This document shows positions 7,783 to 15,656 of a DNA stretch of 34,182 bases, in pieces. The DNA comes from Bacteroidetes bacterium CG12_big_fil_rev_8_21_14_0_65_60_17 (GTDB taxonomy: Bacteria; Bacteroidota; Rhodothermia; Rhodothermales; UBA10348). Within the stretch, counting starts at the first letter, position 1. Each line of letters starts with the position of its first letter. Below the pieces are notes generated by a model. The model saw nothing but the letters and a program-made list of their open reading frames with translations, had not been told where the DNA came from and did not search any database. Both the position numbers and the translations under genes were made by a program. The stretch is taken from positions 1 to 34,182 of the forward strand of contig PCUY01000028.1 of assembly GCA_002787815.1 (NCBI GenBank). Direction: 5' to 3'.

Positions 7783-8280
7783 ATGGAAAAAAACAGGACT
7801 CCGTATACCATCCACATGGGCCTTGAGGCCCCACTGCCCGTGGACCCTGCGAGCGCATCGCCCAATGCGACCTCCCTGCGACGCATCTCCGGTTCGTCAT
7901 TCATTTTTCGCCACAAGGGCACGTGCTACCCCATGACCATATCGGAGCATGGCGCAAATAAATTGCGGATATGGGCACGACACCATGCGGTGGACGCCCT
8001 TGTGCGGGATGAAAAAGACCAGCTGCTGGAGTCCTGGGGATACGACCCTTCCGCCTCCGCTGCCGAGCGCGAACTGCTGGCACCCATGCCGGGACTCGTC
8101 CTGTCTGTTGCCGTCGCACCTGGTCAACACGTGTCGGCCGGAGATCCGCTTCTGGTCCTGGAAGCCATGAAGATGGAAAATGAGCTGCGCGCGGAGACGG
8201 ACTGCGTCGTCGAGGCCGTTCACGTGGAGCCAGGAGAAGCGGTTGGCAAAAAGCAGGTGCTTCTGGAGTTCGCTTCATGA
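7783..8280 (+). CDS. Biotin carboxyl carrier protein, stand-alone Bacteroidota type
   Basis: The C-terminal 70 residues form a biotinyl domain: APMPGLVLSVAVAPGQ near 100-115, then EAMKMEN with the biotin-accepting Lys130, closing with VLLEF. About 95 N-terminal residues form a helper domain like that of Bacteroidota carriers annotated as acetyl-/propionyl-CoA carboxylase biotin subunits (recognition from memory). The protein would carry carboxybiotin between a biotin carboxylase and a carboxyltransferase, neither of which is encoded in this window, so its partner is unknown. The stop overlaps the epimerase start by 4 nt (ATGA). The gene is therefore the head of the chain that continues into the metal transporter. 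Confidence 0.88.
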   Translation: MEKNRTPYTIHMGLEAPLPVDPASASPNATSLRRISGSSFIFRHKGTCYPMTISEHGANKLRIWARHHAVDALVRDEKDQLLESWGYDPSASAAERELLAPMPGLVLSVAVAPGQHVSAGDPLLVLEAMKMENELRAETDCVVEAVHVEPGEAVGKKQVLLEFAS

Positions 8281-9254
8281 TCTGTTTTGTAACGGGTGGT
8301 ACCGGTTTTCTTGGTTCGCACCTGGTTCGGCGACTCGCGGGTGAAGGCCATGACGTACGCGTCCTGAAGCGCTCCACATCCAGGACCGACCTGCTGTCCG
8401 ATGTAACAGACAGCGTAGCATGGATCCCGGGCGACCTGTTTGACCCTGTAGCACTCCGCACGGGAATGGATGGTGCAGGTGCCGTATTCCATGCTGCGGC
8501 GTTCGTCGGTTTCAACGGAAAGCGATCGCACAATGCACTCTACAGAATAAATGTCGACGGCACGCGTCACACGCTCAACGCAGCACTCGAGATGGATGTA
8601 CCCCGATTCGTACATGTATCGAGCATTTCAGCCCTTGGACGAAGCCTGACGCCTGGTGACTGCAAGGATGAAAACGCATCATGGTCGGATACGGGTATTT
8701 TTACCGGGTACGCCCACTCCAAATACCTGGCTGAGCTGGAGGTGCACCGGGCGGTTGCGGAAGGGCTCCAGGCGGTCATGGTGAATCCGTCACTGATCAT
8801 GGGTCCCGGTCGTTCGGGAGAGAATACGACACAGCTTGTGGAGCAGGTCCGTGCGGGAAAACTACCGTTCTATCCCCCCGGAAGCACGAATGTGGTCGAT
8901 GTGGATGATGTGGTCTCGGGTATCATGGCTGCTCGCAGCCGGGGTGCTGCGGGTGAACGGTATATACTTGGAGGACACAACCTCACGTGGAAAAACCTGA
9001 TTGACACATTGGCGGACGCTCTCGGCGTCGATCCACCCGGTCTTTCCATTTCGCCCCGCCTTCTGATGGCCGTAGCCACGGTGTCGGAAGCCATTGGCTG
9101 GTTGCTCCGGTACCAACCTCTCATTACCCGTGAGTCGGCACGTATTTCCACGTCCACGTCATGCTTTGACAACACCAGGGCCAAAGCGGAACTCGGCTTC
9201 TCGCCTCGACCATTCGAAGAGACAGCGGGACGGATAGCCAATGCACTGTCATGA
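8277..9254 (+). CDS. NAD(P)-dependent epimerase/dehydratase (extended SDR family)
   Basis: The 325-residue protein is an extended short-chain dehydrogenase/reductase. It has the dinucleotide loop TGGTGFLGSHLVRRL (6-20), a catalytic serine region HVSSISALG (113-121) and the YAHSK catalytic motif (Tyr145, Lys149). It resembles HpnA/dihydroflavonol-reductase-like members (DFR/HpnA type) that act on sugars, steroids or hopanoid intermediates. The substrate cannot be read from sequence. It overlaps the biotin carrier upstream by ATGA and the metal-binding lipoprotein downstream by ATGA, so it is translationally coupled on both sides. Its role in a metal-uptake context is unclear. Confidence 0.88.
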   Translation: MICFVTGGTGFLGSHLVRRLAGEGHDVRVLKRSTSRTDLLSDVTDSVAWIPGDLFDPVALRTGMDGAGAVFHAAAFVGFNGKRSHNALYRINVDGTRHTLNAALEMDVPRFVHVSSISALGRSLTPGDCKDENASWSDTGIFTGYAHSKYLAELEVHRAVAEGLQAVMVNPSLIMGPGRSGENTTQLVEQVRAGKLPFYPPGSTNVVDVDDVVSGIMAARSRGAAGERYILGGHNLTWKNLIDTLADALGVDPPGLSISPRLLMAVATVSEAIGWLLRYQPLITRESARISTSTSCFDNTRAKAELGFSPRPFEETAGRIANALS

Positions 9255-10132
9255 CCCGCTTTGGCCGCAATCTCCACTGTGTACTGTTGATGTGCTCATC
9301 AGTACTCATTTCGTGTCGGATCGCAGAAAACCCACCCGTCCCCGATGACGGGCCGAACGGTATACATATTGTCGTCAGCCTGCCTGTCGTAGGATTGATT
9401 ACGGAACCCCTGTTGCCGGACGGCATGTCCTGGTCGGCCGTGCTGCCCGCCGGGGGTTCACCCCACGCATTCGAGCCAAGCCCATCGCACGGTGTTCTCG
9501 TCTCTCGAAGTCCCGTTCTGATAGCCGTCCACCCACATGTCGATGGGTGGGCGTCTCGACTGACGCGTGGTGCTACCATTCATCTCGAAAGCGGAGAGCG
9601 CCACGCGCACGGTGACCATGAGCACGAGAATGGACATATCTGGATGGATCCGGTGCATGTACGCGCCATTATCGGGGAGCTGGGGCGTGAGTTGTGCATG
9701 GCCGTCCCGGAAACATGTCCTGACATGCATGACCGCGTGGCCGCTTTCAGTGACACACTCCATGCGCTTGACCGGGAACTGGTTGAATTGCTCAGCACGG
9801 CATCTCCATCTTCTCCCCGCAGACCCCTGCTTACAGCGCTTCCGTTCATCCACCCGTTGCTGGACCGCTACGATGTGGCCTACGAAGGTCCCGTTCAGCG
9901 CGTGCCGGGTGACATGGTTGCGCCCTCGGAATTGGCCCGTCTGCTGCGGGCGTCGCGGGATCAAGGAACCCGGGCATTCGTCTCACAGCAGTCCATGATG
10001 TCGTCCGCCCTCGGCCAGATTGCTTCTGACGCCGGGCTGGAGCTCGTCATGGTGGAGCCAACGGGCCACGGATTCGACTCCTACACGGCATTCATCAGGG
10101 AAACCGCACGAAAAATCCATGCTGCACGTTGA
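9251..10132 (+). CDS. Metal ABC transporter substrate-binding lipoprotein (ZnuA-like)
   Basis: This 293-residue protein is a cluster A-I metal-binding protein, which captures Zn2+ or Mn2+ in the periplasm for the ABC permease. A signal peptide ends in the lipobox LISC with Cys22, indicating a lipoprotein. Likely ligands are His72 (GGSPHAFEPSP), His129 (GHIWMDP) and possibly His201 (PFIHPLLDRY). A His/Asp/Glu-rich loop at about 117-129 precedes HIWMDP and is typical of zinc-specific members. It overlaps the epimerase by 4 nt, and the ATPase gene begins inside its last 14 nt. Zinc is favoured over manganese because of the His-rich loop, but that is inference. Confidence 0.9.
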   Translation: MTRFGRNLHCVLLMCSSVLISCRIAENPPVPDDGPNGIHIVVSLPVVGLITEPLLPDGMSWSAVLPAGGSPHAFEPSPSHGVLVSRSPVLIAVHPHVDGWASRLTRGATIHLESGERHAHGDHEHENGHIWMDPVHVRAIIGELGRELCMAVPETCPDMHDRVAAFSDTLHALDRELVELLSTASPSSPRRPLLTALPFIHPLLDRYDVAYEGPVQRVPGDMVAPSELARLLRASRDQGTRAFVSQQSMMSSALGQIASDAGLELVMVEPTGHGFDSYTAFIRETARKIHAAR

Positions 10133-10844
10133 CCACATGTCCGTGACACTGGGCAGGAGATGTGTCCTGAGGGATGTATCCCTTCACGCCGGTCCCGGAG
10201 ATTTCGCCGCGGTGATGGGTCCGAACGGCGGGGGCAAGTCCACTCTGATCAGAGCCATCCTCGGGCTCATCCCTATCTCAAGCGGAACGGTTCGCGTAAC
10301 ACCTGGCGTTTCCCGTATCGGGTATATCCCGCAGACAAAAACGCTCGACAGGACGTTCCCTGCAACACCGGTAGACCTGGTGGCATCGGGCCTCCAGGGT
10401 CGATGGCCCTGGCTCCTGTCACGTCAGGATCGCAAACCCGTGTTGGAGGCCCTTTCGATTGTCGGGGCGAACCACCTTGCCGGCTCCCGGCTGGCGGACC
10501 TCTCGGGCGGAGAATTGCAACGCGTCTACCTGGCACGGGCACTCGTGAGTGACCCTCCGCTCGTCATTCTTGATGAACCCGAGGCGGGCGTCGACCAAAC
10601 AGGCACAACCGACCTTTATGACGTCCTCGACTCGTGCCGCAAGTCGCGCAACATGGCAATAGTCATGGTAACCCATGACTGGGATGTGGCCTATCACCAC
10701 GCGACGAAAATCCTTCTGATCAATGGGCATACGATTGCTTCCGGGGTTCCGTCTGAAGCCCTGACCGATCAGGCGGTCCGCGAGGCATTTGGACATGTGG
10801 GACATTCCCACGACGTAATAGGCCGGGGGCACGCTCATGACTGA
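10119..10844 (+). CDS. Metal ABC transporter ATP-binding protein (ZnuC-like)
   Basis: The 241-residue nucleotide-binding subunit drives metal import. It shows Walker A GPNGGGKST (34-42), a Q-loop near GYIPQTKTLD (68-77), the ABC signature LSGGELQRV (128-136), Walker B LVILDEPEAGVD (148-159) and the switch histidine in MVTHD (183-187). The ATG at 10119 is chosen because it starts the usual family N-terminus; the upstream open frame is the overlap with the binding-protein gene. The C-terminus is rich in histidine (last 16 residues, ending HAHD), a possible metal-sensing or storage tail. It overlaps the permease gene by 8 nt. Confidence 0.92.
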   Translation: MLHVDHMSVTLGRRCVLRDVSLHAGPGDFAAVMGPNGGGKSTLIRAILGLIPISSGTVRVTPGVSRIGYIPQTKTLDRTFPATPVDLVASGLQGRWPWLLSRQDRKPVLEALSIVGANHLAGSRLADLSGGELQRVYLARALVSDPPLVILDEPEAGVDQTGTTDLYDVLDSCRKSRNMAIVMVTHDWDVAYHHATKILLINGHTIASGVPSEALTDQAVREAFGHVGHSHDVIGRGHAHD

Positions 10845-11643
10845 CTTCTGGTTGAGCTACCCCTTCATGCAGCGGGCCGTCCTGGCCGGCCTTCTGTTGT
10901 CTGTCGTGGCCGGCTACTATGGTTCTTTTGTGGTACAGCGGCGCATGAGCTTTCTGGGGGCCGGACTCGCGCACGCCGCATTCGGAGGCATTGCCCTCGG
11001 ACTGCTGCTTGGAGCCGAGCCGTTGTGGGTGGCACTGCCGTTCACCGCCGTGGTAGCCACGCTCATCCATGTTCTGCGCAGTACCCGGCAGATCTCGTCC
11101 GATACGGCCATCGGAATTCTGTTTTCCGTCTCCGTCGCGCTTGGCCTGCTCTTTCTGTCCATGCGGGAGGGATCGCCGGTCGACGCATTCTCCTACCTTT
11201 TTGGCTCCATTCTCGGGCTCGGCTGGCTTGACGTCTGGTTGTCGGTCGGACTTCTGGCTGTCGCTCTCGCAACACTACCGCGGCTCTGGGGCCGATGGGC
11301 GTACGCGTCGTTCGACGAAGAGGCCGCCAGGGCCCAGGGTGTCGCGACGGGTCGCGACAGTTTCCTGCTGACATTGTGCGTAGCCCTCACGCTGGTTGTG
11401 TCCATCAAGATGGTGGGCATTCTGCTGGTGTCCGCCTGGCTTGTCATCCCGGCTGCGGCAGCGCGCCTCGTTGCCGGCAGCTTTGGTGCAATGACGGCCG
11501 GTGCCGTCCTGATTTCCACCGCGTCGACACTTGCAGGACTGTACATCTCGTGGCTGGCAGACCTTCCGTCCGGAGCGGCCGTCGTGCTCCTGCAGGCGCT
11601 GATGTTCCTGTTCGCGTGGATTATACACCGGACGATCTGTTGA
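10837..11643 (+). CDS. Metal ABC transporter permease (ZnuB-like)
   Basis: This 268-residue, strongly hydrophobic protein has about eight predicted membrane helices and belongs to the ABC-3 family of Zn/Mn/Fe permeases. The conserved opening FMQRAVLAGLLLS (10-22), the RRMSFLGAGLAHAAFGG segment (35-51) and the AWLVIPAAAARLVAG region (about 206-220) fit the family. It forms the inner-membrane channel for the adjacent ATPase and lipoprotein, all overlapping in one transcription unit that starts at the biotin carrier. Immediately after the stop lies an imperfect hairpin that may end or attenuate the operon. Confidence 0.92.
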   Translation: MTDFWLSYPFMQRAVLAGLLLSVVAGYYGSFVVQRRMSFLGAGLAHAAFGGIALGLLLGAEPLWVALPFTAVVATLIHVLRSTRQISSDTAIGILFSVSVALGLLFLSMREGSPVDAFSYLFGSILGLGWLDVWLSVGLLAVALATLPRLWGRWAYASFDEEAARAQGVATGRDSFLLTLCVALTLVVSIKMVGILLVSAWLVIPAAAARLVAGSFGAMTAGAVLISTASTLAGLYISWLADLPSGAAVVLLQALMFLFAWIIHRTIC

Positions 11644-11644
11644 A

Positions 11645-11683
11645 CTGCACAAATGAGCGCCTCTCTCCGGAACATCTGTGCAG
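11645..11683 (+). other. Imperfect hairpin after the permease gene, possible terminator or attenuator
   Basis: A 7-bp perfect stem (11645-11651 with 11677-11683) extends by one mismatch and three more pairs around a 17-nt loop. It begins one base after the permease stop. A short T-rich stretch follows about nine bases later, so a weak intrinsic terminator is possible, but there is no proper U-tract. Confidence 0.3.
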
Positions 11684-11726
11684 CGACGTGCATTTTCATG
11701 CTTCCCATTTCGTGACGACACGGACC

Positions 11727-12080
11727 ATGCACATCTTCAGATCCAAAAGAATTTCCATTGGCATCAGCCTGATGCTGTCATGGCTTGTTCTTTTTGGTGG
11801 AAGTATTGCGCCGCATGTGCACAGTCTGTTGCATCACGAGCTGGCCAATGCGTCACACTGTAGGTACGCCGAGCAAGGACCTGCATTCGAGCCGCACCAT
11901 TCCACGTTGCACAGTTCAGACTGCGTTTTCCAGCACCGAACACCGGAGACGATTTCCGCTTCCGGACTTGAAGAAACGATTCCGCAATGGAAGAGAGCCG
12001 AACGACAGCCTCGTTTTCACTGCCTTCCCGCACAGCAGTCCGTGCGCGCACACCTGTGCCGCGGCCCCCCGCTTGCCTGA
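11727..12080 (+). CDS. Small secreted His/Cys-rich protein, function unknown
   Basis: I do not recognise a named function. The 117-residue product has a positively charged start, a hydrophobic signal or anchor helix (about 11-28) and then a histidine-rich stretch: 11 of its 12 histidines lie after residue 29, including PHVHSLLHHE. Cysteines lie at 45, 66, 99 and 111, and the protein ends in CRGPPLA. Small proteins of this style, ending in R-x-PP, occur near metal-linked TonB receptors in Bacteroidota and resemble DUF2946-like proteins (from memory, not tested). It sits between the metal ABC importer and a TonB-dependent receptor, so a periplasmic metal-binding role is a reasonable guess. The start is the ATG at 11727. 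Confidence 0.65.
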   Translation: MHIFRSKRISIGISLMLSWLVLFGGSIAPHVHSLLHHELANASHCRYAEQGPAFEPHHSTLHSSDCVFQHRTPETISASGLEETIPQWKRAERQPRFHCLPAQQSVRAHLCRGPPLA

Positions 12081-12131
12081 CCGATCCCCAGCCACGTTTC
12101 CGGTTCTGCAAGTCTACTCACGGTTCATTCT

Positions 12132-14501
12132 GTGCTTCGTTCGTTTCCCTTTGGATGCGCACTGTGTCGCTGTTCAACAGTGTGCGCATGTTGCTTTCTC
12201 CTCATTCTCACGGCTCCTGTAGCGCGCTCACAAACGCTGTCGGGTACGGTCACCACGTCAGGTGGTGATCCAGTCGAGATGGTCCAGGTAGTCCTTCCGG
12301 ACCTTGGTAGAGGCACGCTCACAAACCATGAAGGATTCTACCGGATGACGGGGCTTCCCCTGGGCTCTGTACTCGTGGAATACCGGTTCATCGGATACGA
12401 ACCGGTACAGCGGAAAATCCTTGTCGAGGGAGGCGAGAACGAGCTCAACGTGGTTCTCTCCGAGACGAGATATGGCCTCAATGAAGCGGTCGTTTCTGCA
12501 GAGTCGCAGGCCGATGTCATGCTGACACGGTCCACCCGTTCCATCGCCGTTCTCGATACACGCGAGTTGGAAGACCTGCGCGGACAAACGCTTGGAGGCA
12601 TGTTGGCTGAACTACCGGGCGTGACCACACTCACGACAGGACCGTCGATCTCCAAACCGGTCATTCGCGGACTTCACAGTCAGCGGATTGTCGTCGTGAA
12701 TGCAGGCGTTCAGCAGGAAGGGCAACAGTGGGGCGGAGAACATGCCCCGGAAATAGATCCTTTTTCTGCTGGCCGTGTTGAGGTCATCCGCGGTGCTGCA
12801 GGAGTTGAGTACGGTGTGGGTGCCATAGGCGGTGTTGTTCGGATTGAACCCGAAGAGCTACCGTTCGAGGAGCCTGTTACCGGTTCCGTCTCGGCAAATG
12901 CGTTTTCCAACAACCGACACGGCGCCCTGTCGGCCGCTGTCGGACGTGGGCAGGGACAGCACTGGGCCTGGCGTGTGCAGGGAAGTGCACGCAAGGCTGG
13001 CGACTCCCGCACACCCGACCACGTGATTGGCAACTCCGGTTTCCAGGAAACCGATCTTGCCGGGACCCTGGGTTGGCGGCATGGACAATCCGGCTTCAGG
13101 TTGCACGCGTCCCACTTCGGTACGACGCTCGGTCTGTTTTCAGGAGCTCACATTGGAAACTTCGACGACCTCGTACGCGCAATCGAACGAGGCGAACCTG
13201 CCGTGGATTTCGAATTCACATACGACATCGATGCCCCGAAGCAGGAAATACGTCATGATCTGGTGTCTTTGAGCGCCCACACAGGGTTGCCCACCGGAGA
13301 TTGGATCGAGGTCCAGGCTGGATTTCAGTCCAATCGCCGCGCGGAGTTCGACGCCCACAGACGGTTTGGCGATCCGGACAAAGATCCTGCGTTCTCGCTG
13401 GATTTGCGTACCTGGTCACTTGACACGCGTGTTCGGCAGCGACCGCGCAGCAACGTAACGGGCAACGTCGGAGCTTCGGTTACTACACAGGGCAACAAAA
13501 ACGGTGAGTCCGGATTCCTCATTCCGAACTTCCGGTCGACCACAGTCAGCGCATTTGCCCACGAAATGTGGGTGACTGACAGACTGACCATTGACACCGG
13601 TATTCGGTATGACTATCGCTGGCAACGGGCGTTTCCAAAGGAAAACCTGTCGTCGGGCCCGTTCGTACGGCGGACGACAACGTATTCCGATGTATCCGCG
13701 GTTCTTGGTATCATCTGGCGTCCCCTGGACCACTGGTCTTTCGCTTCGAATCTGGGGCGCGCATGGCGCCCACCCGGCATCAATGAACTCTATAACTTCG
13801 GGGTCCATCACGGTACGGCACAGTTCGAATCCGGAAACCCCGACCTCCGCAAGGAACGCAGCCTGAACTTCGATGCCACTCTGCGCCATGTCAGTCAGCG
13901 TCTTACGCTGGAGTTCAGTGCTTACCGCAATGCCATGAACGGATTTATTTTCCTTTTCCCGGAGAGTGAACCGCGCGTTACCATCCGGGGCACATTTCCT
14001 GCGTTCCGGTATGTCCAACGCGATGTCGTGCTCCGTGGGTTGGATGGTTTTGTGGATGCGCAGCTCGTCGGCCGCCTTCGCGGACACGCCTCGGCATCCA
14101 TTGTCAGAGGTCGTGAGACGGACACGGATCTTGACCTCATTGACATGCCATCCGACCGGATACGTACTGGACTGGAATTCGAAATGCGGGAAAGGTCCTG
14201 GCTTTCGGATATGTCCCTGCATGCTGATGTGGAGGCCGTTGCGCGCCAGGATCGCTTTCCCGAAGGGGTGGATTTCGCACCTCCACCGGACGGGTACACA
14301 CTCGTACACGTCGGGGCATCGGGTACATGGACCAGGGGATCGGTCCCCGTCACATTCTCCCTCGATATCAACAACCTGTTTGATGTCTCTTACCGCGACT
14401 ATCTGAGTCGCTTTCGCTACTTCATAGACGACCCCGGACGTAATGTCAGTGTGCGCATGTACATTCCATTCGGTCCGGATCGCAATGGAAACAATACGTG
14501 A
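12132..14501 (+). CDS. TonB-dependent outer-membrane receptor, probably metal uptake
   Basis: This 789-residue receptor imports a scarce ligand across the outer membrane using TonB energy. A signal peptide ends near ARS-Q (31-34). A carboxypeptidase-regulatory-like beta domain follows (about 35-110), then a plug (about 125-245) containing PVIRGLHSQRIVVVNAGVQQ and the VEVIRGAAGVEYGVGAIGGVV motif. The beta-barrel closes with the SLDINNLFDVSYRDYLSRF motif typical of TonB receptor C-termini. The start is a GTG at 12132. The signal peptide is odd in holding six cysteines (9, 12, 14, 18, 20, 21). Position next to a ZnuABC-like importer suggests a zinc or related metal ligand, comparable to ZnuD, but the substrate is not proven. 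It overlaps the lipoprotein gene or precedes it by 2 nt. Confidence 0.9.
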   Translation: MLRSFPFGCALCRCSTVCACCFLLILTAPVARSQTLSGTVTTSGGDPVEMVQVVLPDLGRGTLTNHEGFYRMTGLPLGSVLVEYRFIGYEPVQRKILVEGGENELNVVLSETRYGLNEAVVSAESQADVMLTRSTRSIAVLDTRELEDLRGQTLGGMLAELPGVTTLTTGPSISKPVIRGLHSQRIVVVNAGVQQEGQQWGGEHAPEIDPFSAGRVEVIRGAAGVEYGVGAIGGVVRIEPEELPFEEPVTGSVSANAFSNNRHGALSAAVGRGQGQHWAWRVQGSARKAGDSRTPDHVIGNSGFQETDLAGTLGWRHGQSGFRLHASHFGTTLGLFSGAHIGNFDDLVRAIERGEPAVDFEFTYDIDAPKQEIRHDLVSLSAHTGLPTGDWIEVQAGFQSNRRAEFDAHRRFGDPDKDPAFSLDLRTWSLDTRVRQRPRSNVTGNVGASVTTQGNKNGESGFLIPNFRSTTVSAFAHEMWVTDRLTIDTGIRYDYRWQRAFPKENLSSGPFVRRTTTYSDVSAVLGIIWRPLDHWSFASNLGRAWRPPGINELYNFGVHHGTAQFESGNPDLRKERSLNFDATLRHVSQRLTLEFSAYRNAMNGFIFLFPESEPRVTIRGTFPAFRYVQRDVVLRGLDGFVDAQLVGRLRGHASASIVRGRETDTDLDLIDMPSDRIRTGLEFEMRERSWLSDMSLHADVEAVARQDRFPEGVDFAPPPDGYTLVHVGASGTWTRGSVPVTFSLDINNLFDVSYRDYLSRFRYFIDDPGRNVSVRMYIPFGPDRNGNNT

Positions 14502-14503
14502 AC

Positions 14504-15055
14504 ATGAAATACTTAGACACCCGCATTTTCGTTCTACCTCTCCTCTTTATTGTCCTTCTCGCCGGTTGCGACTCGACGGATCCCGATCCGGAAGGAGTCG
14601 GTGAAGAAGAACTCATTACTCGGTTGGCCGTGACTCTATCGGCAAACGGTCAATCCGTTACGTATGAAGCCAATGATCCCGATGGCGACGGCACGAACTT
14701 GCAGATTGAGACCATGGTGCTGCAATCCGGGACGACTTATTCGGGAAGCATCGCTGTCTTTGACGACGTCAACGGTGAAGACGTAGGGGAAGAAATTGCC
14801 GACGAAGACGACGAACATCAGTTCTTCTTCATTCCTGGCGGTCCGGCCGCTGCACGCCTGAGTGTGGTTGCCACCGATCAGGATGAGAACGGGCTGCCGG
14901 TCGGGCTGTCCTTCCAACTGACTGTCGCGGGCGGAGGTAGTGGAACCGCCTCGCTGCAGATCATCCTGAGTCACTTCGACGATGCGCCAAAGGATGGCGT
15001 GAACAGAAGTGATGAAACGGACATCGATGTAACCTTTCCCGTAACCATTCAATAG
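14504..15055 (+). CDS. Acidic lipoprotein accompanying the TonB receptor, function unknown
   Basis: This 183-residue protein has a type II signal peptide with lipobox LLAGC (Cys22). A strongly acidic mature part of immunoglobulin-like beta character follows. Notable segments are DPDGDGTN (about 60-67), a DEDDEHQFFFIPGG stretch in the middle and the ending TDIDVTFPVTIQ. I recall similar uncharacterised lipoproteins next to TonB receptors in Bacteroidota. The repeated Asp suggests Ca2+ or other metal binding. A GTG at 14498 overlapping the receptor stop (GTGA) could be the start, but the ATG at 14504 gives the better signal peptide. It would be lipid-anchored, probably at the outer membrane, as a receptor accessory. 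Confidence 0.75.
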   Translation: MKYLDTRIFVLPLLFIVLLAGCDSTDPDPEGVGEEELITRLAVTLSANGQSVTYEANDPDGDGTNLQIETMVLQSGTTYSGSIAVFDDVNGEDVGEEIADEDDEHQFFFIPGGPAAARLSVVATDQDENGLPVGLSFQLTVAGGGSGTASLQIILSHFDDAPKDGVNRSDETDIDVTFPVTIQ

Positions 15056-15059
15056 CGGG

Positions 15060-15656
15060 TCATGCGTCGGGGTCGGCCTCAATGAGGCCGACCCCGTCTG
15101 CATACAGGGAGTAGGATGCACTGACTCGTCCCTCCCGTATGTCGGCCAATGTGCGCCGCAGAAGCCTTCGCCGGAGACCACTCAGATGATCCACAAACAG
15201 GACGCCGTCGACGTGGTCATATTCATGCTGAATGACCCGGGCGAGTATCCCATTGAACTGTTCGGTGTGTTCTTTGAACGACCGATCACGGTATCGAAGG
15301 TGGATGCGCTCCGGTCGGATGACAGTCTCATGCACGTCAGGAATGGAGAGGCATCCTTCTTCAAAGTCGGTCTCTGATTCGGAGGCCTCCGCCAGGTCGG
15401 CATTCACGAAAACCATGGGTTGTGGCGGCATTTCACCGCCTGCGTCCCGGATGTCCTGTTCCATATGGGAAACGTCCACGACAAAAAGTCGCTCCGTACG
15501 ACCAATCTGGGGGGCTGCCAGTCCAATTCCCTGCGCGGCGTACATGGTTTCAAGCATGTCGTCCACCAGTTGCTGGAATTCGGGAGAGTCGGCCTCCACG
15601 TCCTCACAAACGGTTCTCAGCGCAGGAGAACCCAATACATGGATGGGGTGAATCAT
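15060..15656 (-). CDS. def: Peptide deformylase
   Basis: Def removes the formyl group from N-terminal formyl-methionine of new proteins, using a metal ion (usually Fe2+) at its active site. The 198-residue protein carries all three family motifs: GIGLAAPQIG (43-52), EGCLSIP with metal ligand Cys102, and HEYDHVDGVLFVD with His144, Glu145 and His148. It overlaps ruvX by 4 nt, so the two are translationally coupled. Its last codons include a perfect 13-bp inverted repeat, and its stop is 4 nt from the stop of the convergent lipoprotein gene. The map gene, which acts next in methionine removal, is about 7 kb upstream in the same block. Confidence 0.96.
   Translation of the reverse strand: MIHPIHVLGSPALRTVCEDVEADSPEFQQLVDDMLETMYAAQGIGLAAPQIGRTERLFVVDVSHMEQDIRDAGGEMPPQPMVFVNADLAEASESETDFEEGCLSIPDVHETVIRPERIHLRYRDRSFKEHTEQFNGILARVIQHEYDHVDGVLFVDHLSGLRRRLLRRTLADIREGRVSASYSLYADGVGLIEADPDA
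15068..15096. terminator. Perfect 13-bp hairpin inside the def 3' end, likely bidirectional terminator
   Basis: Arms 15068-15080 and 15084-15096 are perfectly complementary around a 3-nt loop, with 10 of 13 pairs being G-C. It lies at the junction of two convergent genes: 12 nt after the lipoprotein stop on the plus strand and within the last codons of def on the minus strand. No U-tract follows on either side, so it may need a factor or serve mainly as a 3'-end stabiliser. Confidence 0.55.

Follow-up and report, generated by a model that had tools for sequence, protein, structure and literature searches.

A putative zinc-uptake operon with a predicted CruR-like leader peptide ahead of its outer-membrane receptor in a Rhodothermales bacterium

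The stretch of DNA analysed here, called the window, comprises 34,182 nucleotides (nt) of Bacteroidetes bacterium CG12_big_fil_rev_8_21_14_0_65_60_17 (PCUY01000028.1, positions 1 to 34,182 of the forward strand) and is contig C63 of a 2.9-Mb genome assembled in 90 contigs. Six of its genes, all on the + strand, encode in order a periplasmic metal-binding protein, an ATPase, a permease, a small open reading frame (ORF), a TonB-dependent receptor and a lipoprotein. With a probability of roughly 0.6, this locus is a zinc-uptake operon in which a leader peptide resembling CruR of Bordetella pertussis controls the outer-membrane half, the receptor and the lipoprotein. Judged from its sequence, the small 'secreted' protein is probably no metal carrier but a leader peptide on which the translating ribosome stalls, turning the receptor on or off according to metal. 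The features of this upstream ORF (uORF) are:

11727..12080, + strand: small His/Cys ORF of 117 amino acids (aa), predicted RGPP arrest-peptide uORF, CruR-like (alignment invariants; substitution rates)
11922..11924, + strand: codon of Cys66; in most relatives this Cys opens a CxxC (alignment)
12060..12071, + strand: codons for Arg-Gly-Pro-Pro, the motif at which the ribosome is predicted to arrest; two residues follow before the stop
12000..12149, + strand: stretch rich in C and poor in G that spans the uORF end and the following gap, possible Rho loading region

The relatives' loci used for comparison, numbered L046 and so on, were fetched from genomes of the phylum (L046 and L108 are one contig), and phylum-wide counts were taken over 394 genomes. 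By its pattern of substitutions, the small ORF is genuinely translated and under purifying selection: the ratio of nonsynonymous to synonymous substitution rates (dN/dS) against L046 is 0.213 in frame, and 1.28 and 2.48 in the shifted frames. The repeated C-terminal R(G/A)PP was first noticed when upstream ORFs were compared across loci. An upstream ORF ending in R[GAS]PP is found at 34 of 56 receptors; at the same loci, this ending occurs in 49 of 4971 ORFs of 60-220 aa, most of the uORFs being among the 49. An alignment of 30 receptor-linked uORFs, A1, which also served as the search profile, displays a hydrophobic N-terminal segment after a basic start and many His residues. H32, C66, R112, P114 and P115 are invariant in it, and the remainder of the peptide is divergent, with a mean column identity of 20%. 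CxxC is carried by 24 of the first 34 uORFs and by 74 of a further 100. The distance from its second Cys to the Arg is 41-45 residues in all 24 of the former and 38-46 residues in 73 of the 74 latter, and the R-x-P-P motif lies 2-10 residues from the C terminus in both sets. The corresponding distance in the window is 42, counted from position 69, where the second Cys is missing, to R112. The uORF begins 83 nt past the znuB stop on the same strand, possibly with a promoter of its own, and ends 51 nt before the receptor gene.

Two leaders of this kind are known from copper systems. CruR, a DUF2946 protein, is the product of a uORF. Copper is sensed by the CxxC of the nascent chain, and the ribosome stalls on the C-terminal RAPP; this stall shields the downstream receptor gene from Rho. 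The CxxC, which is required for the copper response, is separated from RAPP by 45 residues (PMC9426467). Arrest of CruR on RAPP occurs in vitro, and uORFs with RAPP or RGPP are over-represented before TonB genes and found across Gram-negative bacteria (PMC12992588; EMBO J 2025). The mark of that class, RAPP or RGPP near the C terminus of a short ORF, is present in the window uORF. CutF, a relative that likewise senses copper, has the opposite polarity; in the same study CutF-like proteins were counted in large numbers in Bacteroidota, and nickel or cobalt was proposed as the metal of some (PMC9973294). The authors of the CruR study knew of no riboswitch for either metal, copper or zinc, and saw protein-based leaders as a possible substitute (PMC9426467).

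The initial annotation had described the small ORF as a His/Cys-rich secreted protein engaged in periplasmic metal handling. The ORF does exist between permease and receptor, and a hydrophobic N-terminal segment, many His residues, a coding frame under selection and a place upstream of metal genes would all suit an exported chaperone that hands zinc from the receptor to ZnuA and has no regulatory function. What is invariant, however, is the extreme C-terminal R-x-P-P and the Cys spacing, in a peptide that otherwise diverges. A chaperone has no need of a proline arrest motif, and in the reports concerned no stable protein was detected for the related CruR or CutF (PMC9426467, PMC9973294). A chaperone is therefore unlikely, and the handling role is not supported: the invariant R-x-P-P, the fixed spacing of the Cys motif and the position before metal-uptake genes argue for a regulatory arrest peptide.

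Of the 394 genomes, 155 have a match to the A1 profile and only 11 to Pfam DUF2946; the small ORF is the sole A1 match in its own genome. Among the matches listed, 100 further uORF places were fetched and classified by the gene that follows: a ZnuD-like TonB-dependent receptor in 73, ABC genes in 12, ZnuA in 7, a COG0523 gene in 5, a weak receptor match in 1 and other genes in 2. As A1 was built from receptor-linked uORFs, it inflates the share of receptors but not the ZnuA, COG0523 and ABC classes. The ABC class mixes ABC-2 type sets with split MacB/FtsX-like sets (L303, L307), and L314 was classed by its receptor only. Pfam confirmed ZnuA and ABC-3 in L251, cobW/CobW_C in L255 and L221, and ABC_tran with DUF3526/ABC2 in L228. 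The same gene types recur in zinc regulons elsewhere. The Zur regulon of Caulobacter includes an ABC-2 set, znuGHI, with a TonB receptor (PMC4176598), the split MacB PA4064-4065 of Pseudomonas, which L303 and L307 resemble in gene content, is under Zur (PMC11481552), and COG0523 genes sit behind Zur sites in many genomes (PMC2770081). The spread of partners argues for zinc independently of the receptor. Within the genus of the window the uORF sits inside the znuABC run, which also speaks for zinc. The same type of uORF probably controls other zinc genes of the phylum: ZnuD-like receptors, ZnuABC, ABC systems and COG0523 GTPases.

Several arrangements recur among these loci. Six of the seven ZnuA loci have a barrel-like secreted protein of 381-392 aa between uORF and ZnuA. 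Conserved in it is FGKLNTVHPHAW, and its C terminus carries GPHKAHPF, which varies in L251. Pfam detected nothing in the copy of L251; the protein is a candidate outer-membrane zinc channel working without TonB. Its copies are:

L290:902-2068, L292:4308-5474, L299:940-2106, L316:958-2124, L313:4234-5409 and L251:3468-4610: barrel-like protein

In L225, L228, L233, L236, L237 and L265 the uORF is followed by an ABC-2 ATPase, a divergent TonB receptor and ABC-2 permeases of the DUF3526 type, a gene content similar to that of Caulobacter znuK-znuGHI. In L246, L249, L253, L254 and L257 the partner and the gene order seem to have been exchanged: here another small lipoprotein, of about 158-178 aa, is encoded between the uORF and the receptor gene. 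Near the uORF-COG0523 and uORF-MacB sets of L221, L235, L302, L303 and L307 lies a recurrent gene for a Rossmann-type (FAD/NAD-like) protein that begins with a VGGGVHGT-like sequence.

The remaining genes of the locus and the gene before it are:

8277..9254, + strand: NAD-dependent epimerase, HpnA-like (below cut-off), which opens the overlapping gene run
9251..10132, + strand: ZnuA-like periplasmic metal-binding protein with a His-rich loop (PF01297, 100 bits, cut-off 29)
10119..10844, + strand: ZnuC-like ABC ATPase with a His-rich C-terminal tail (Pfam ABC_tran)
10837..11643, + strand: ZnuB-like ABC-3 permease (PF00950, 223 bits)
12132..14501, + strand: ZnuD-like TonB-dependent receptor (Pfam CarbopepD_reg_2, Plug and barrel; best solved relative ZnuD, 4rdr)
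14498 or 14504..15055, + strand: acidic lipoprotein, receptor partner, predicted immunoglobulin-like (Ig-like) beta-sandwich; start GTG 14498 or ATG 14504

The importer is complete and overlapping, as the initial annotation had it. Epimerase and ZnuA genes overlap by 4 nt, ZnuA and ATPase genes by 14 nt, and ATPase and permease genes by 8 nt; receptor and lipoprotein genes overlap by 4 nt, provided that the lipoprotein starts at GTG 14498. The epimerase gene also precedes the ZnuA gene in L046 and L047. The His-rich loop of the binding protein, HAHGDHEHENGH, and the His-rich tail of the ATPase, GHVGHSHDVIGRGHAHD, are present as described earlier. The dN/dS values against L046 reveal in-frame purifying selection on receptor, lipoprotein, ZnuA and ZnuB. 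The three importer proteins belong to the ZnuA, ABC-3 and ABC ATPase families of Pfam; their scores lie below the zinc equivalog cut-offs of NCBIfam (AztC 58 of 350 bits, ZnuB 145 of 284, ZnuC 165 of 306). A second, stronger homologue of the binding protein (245 bits) is encoded on contig C35 beside an ATPase gene and two permease genes, and that set is Tro-like.

The receptor was ranked closest to ZnuD in a single-sequence search of the PDB. A profile of 38 receptor sequences gave 169 bits for ZnuD, 101 for PhuR (heme), 94 for OprC (copper) and about 51 for BtuB; its NCBIfam ZnuD score (NF038289) is 106 bits, below the cut-off of 950. The zinc ligands of ZnuD are D99, H100, E340 and H499 (PMC4557270). 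With a numbering offset of 14, D99 and H100 align with receptor E203 and H204, and H499 with H559, so that three of the four ligands are matched, one as Glu for Asp. Among 55 receptors, those shorter than 500 aa being left out, an acidic residue stands at E203 in 52, His at H204 in 53 and His at H559 in 54. These comparisons support a grouping of the receptor with ZnuD, apart from cobalamin and siderophore receptors. The reading of the initial annotation, a metal-acquisition locus with zinc favoured, is thus upheld: metal acquisition is supported, and zinc is the best-supported metal.

It could be argued that the uORF is a true CruR relative sensing copper and that receptor and lipoprotein import this metal. 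CruR, CutF and BfrG/CrtA are copper systems (PMC9426467, PMC9973294, PMC12914433), CxxC, present in most relatives, is a copper motif, and the receptor profile also detects OprC. However, ZnuD exceeds OprC by 75 bits, invariant His residues lie ahead of the Cys site, and 97 of the 100 further loci have zinc-type (ZnuA, COG0523, ZnuD-like) or ABC genes downstream, in a tally that did not score copper families as a separate class. Copper-related RAPP uORFs are moreover reported absent from Bacteroidota in the accessible text of PMC12992588. Copper sensing is an improbable explanation of the locus.

In the zinc-responsive switch proposed here, a ribosome translating the 117-aa uORF at low zinc would stall with Pro114 of R-G-P-P in the P site, two residues before the stop. 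The motif itself is observed; the stalling step is inferred from CruR and the RAPP/RGPP peptides. The stalled ribosome would cover the C-rich uORF end and the gap, keeping Rho off or the receptor start open, and receptor and lipoprotein would be made. The C-over-G extremeness of 12000-12149 stands at 26 of 3404 among 150-nt stretches and at 57 of 3409 among 100-nt stretches, and Rho is encoded in the genome; the stretch and the presence of Rho fit the CruR model. At the stall the His/Cys site, about 43 residues from the arrest motif, would be just outside the exit tunnel, where zinc would bind. Binding would relieve the stall, and expression of receptor and lipoprotein would fall, with the polarity of CruR. 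By homology, the receptor would pass zinc over the outer membrane through its ZnuD-like site, the lipoprotein would capture or gate the ligand, and ZnuABC would finish the import. The targets of such a switch in the window would be receptor and lipoprotein but not ZnuABC, which is encoded upstream of the uORF, and the short gap of 51 nt would leave room for a translational variant.

That gap would also suit a translational effect of the opposite sign, in which metal binding promotes stalling and switches the receptor on. CutF works in this way and shares the putative export signal and the proline motif (PMC9973294), but uptake genes are expected to be on when the metal is scarce, and the receptor start shows no conspicuous stem-loop (z -0.94). 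This polarity is distinctly improbable, and a stall relieved by zinc is preferred.

The lipoprotein has 183 aa with 34 Asp and Glu versus 6 Lys and Arg. Across 46 sequences three of its residues never vary (C22, H105, D173), and a fourth, H157, is conserved in at least 90%. Pfam, NCBIfam and other sequence searches gave no convincing family. A structure model (predicted local distance difference test score, pLDDT, 88.7) suggests an Ig-like sandwich; its best structural match is a nuclear pore chain at Z 8.6, the rest being below 8, and no function could be assigned from the fold. The lipoprotein is present in 82 of the 394 genomes. Of the 60 of its loci that were fetched, 54 have a same-strand receptor, and it lies on the same strand within 3.5 kb at 67 of the 80 named receptor loci, which are the best 80 of 580. 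These receptor loci come from Bacteroidota and from records labelled Calditrichia, Gemmatimonadetes and Ignavibacteria. The acidic lipoprotein noted earlier beside the receptor is therefore one half of a conserved pair. Of the wider linkage, the pair holds across the phylum, whereas ZnuA and ZnuB stand beside it only in the window, L046 (the same as L108) and L047, all of one genus. By analogy with other Bacteroidota pairs, the lipoprotein may be a surface ligand-capture partner of the receptor.

A heme receptor with a hemophore-like lipoprotein is very improbable: the best NCBIfam score of the receptor is indeed TIGR01785 TonB-hemin (184 bits, below its cut-off of 317) and ZnuD itself was first annotated as a heme receptor (PMC4557270), but ZnuD exceeds PhuR among solved relatives, in 52 of 55 receptors an acidic residue precedes the plug His, as in the zinc ligand pair of ZnuD, and the neighbours are ZnuABC, COG0523 and MerC.

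COG0523 and MerC were also considered as general neighbours of the receptor and rejected; a COG0523 GTPase gene is near 4 and a MerC-family gene near 7 of 141 loci, which is suggestive, not general. In L060, L063, L075 and L089 a gene for a MerC-family membrane protein lies directly upstream of receptor or uORF, in the place of ZnuB, and may encode an alternative inner-membrane importer. The Cytophagales loci L119, L123-L126 and L136-L139 have receptor and lipoprotein and no RxPP uORF.

Scans of 7900-15300 for other signals gave one promoter-like site, on the other strand, versus 3.0 expected, and 8 terminator-like sites versus 6.3 expected. The Zur boxes to which the initial annotation had pointed did not emerge: a consensus that is proteobacterial only gave two matches in the window (3 mismatches), versus 5.25 expected by shuffling, and none in the locus. 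A single FUR-family gene was detected in the whole genome (G000:C74:45140-45499), and zinc may be left without a dedicated Zur in this organism. A paper on zinc in Riemerella was set aside as an expression link, its loci not being mapped to the present ones.

Several observations weigh against the proposed switch. The window uORF has C66-V-F-Q and lacks the second Cys, as do L046 and L047. It has no match to Pfam DUF2946 (PF11162) even at E 1, a family that matches 10 of the 30 aligned relatives at E up to 1 (best 2.4e-8). It is not the first gene in its run, unlike the CruR genes, and its gap to the receptor is 51 nt versus 162 nt in Bordetella. The RNA fold at the uORF-receptor junction is ordinary (z -0.94), and loci with the uORF differ only weakly in C over G from those that lack it (Mann-Whitney p 0.04), for which reason such a bubble was dropped as a family trait. 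The fourth ligand of ZnuD, E340, falls outside both aligned stretches; the invariant receptor residues E405 and D407, near the E340 region, are a candidate counterpart only. A uORF is found at only 33 of the best 80 of 580 receptor loci, and therefore the pair functions in its absence in many lineages. Stalling, zinc response and metal binding are predictions for every member of the family.

On a wider scale, the odds are about even that Bacteroidota and their relatives possess zinc-sensing nascent peptides, mostly missed by DUF2946, which stall at RAPP/RGPP when zinc is scarce and jointly run a dispersed zinc-starvation regulon (ZnuD-like receptor with lipoprotein, ZnuABC, ABC systems, COG0523 GTPases) alongside Zur or in its place. 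Zinc sensing in Bacteroidota is little described in the literature searched. If the proposal is true, a class known in silico would become a testable regulon that spans 155 of 394 genomes and several unrelated zinc-uptake systems. Many small 'hypothetical secreted' genes would gain a function, and the receptor-lipoprotein pair widespread in Bacteroidota would gain a likely metal.

Receptor and surface lipoprotein pairs of Bacteroidota include those of HmuY, BtuG and SusD. The present pair is like them in having a receptor with an adjacent conserved lipoprotein that is acidic after the lipid Cys; it differs in that no sequence or clear fold relation was found for this lipoprotein. In common with ZnuABC, the importer has a binding protein with a His-rich loop, an ATPase and an ABC-3 permease, overlapping in order, but the match of the binding protein is weak (100 bits) and the importer is joined to the receptor only within the genus of the window. 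Like ZnuD, the receptor keeps the acidic-His pair of the plug and the extracellular His of the zinc site; unlike ZnuD, it has a carboxypeptidase-like N-terminal domain and a lipoprotein partner. Another close parallel is CruR-BfrG/CrtA: in both cases a small uORF, putatively of exported type here, stands directly before a TonB receptor gene, a third gene follows, and a Cys site precedes a C-terminal RAPP/RGPP by about 41-46 residues. The Bordetella system is copper-responsive and first in its operon, with a gap of 162 nt and a PepSY_TM protein as the third gene, whereas the window has zinc-type genes, an invariant His, a 51-nt gap and a lipoprotein in third place, and its uORF lacks the second Cys and a DUF2946 match. 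With the RAPP/RGPP class of PMC12992588 the uORF shares its short length, the C-terminal motif and a TonB gene downstream, and its hydrophobic N-terminal segment may correspond to the localisation signal of that class; the accessible text of that paper gives the class, not the present Bacteroidota family, its zinc-gene partners or a fixed spacing from Cys to arrest motif. A literature search, with subscription-only papers outside its reach, found no case of a zinc-responsive arrest peptide or uORF. CruR for copper and the TonB-related RGPP uORFs are thus already published, and what is new here is their predicted zinc-type counterpart.

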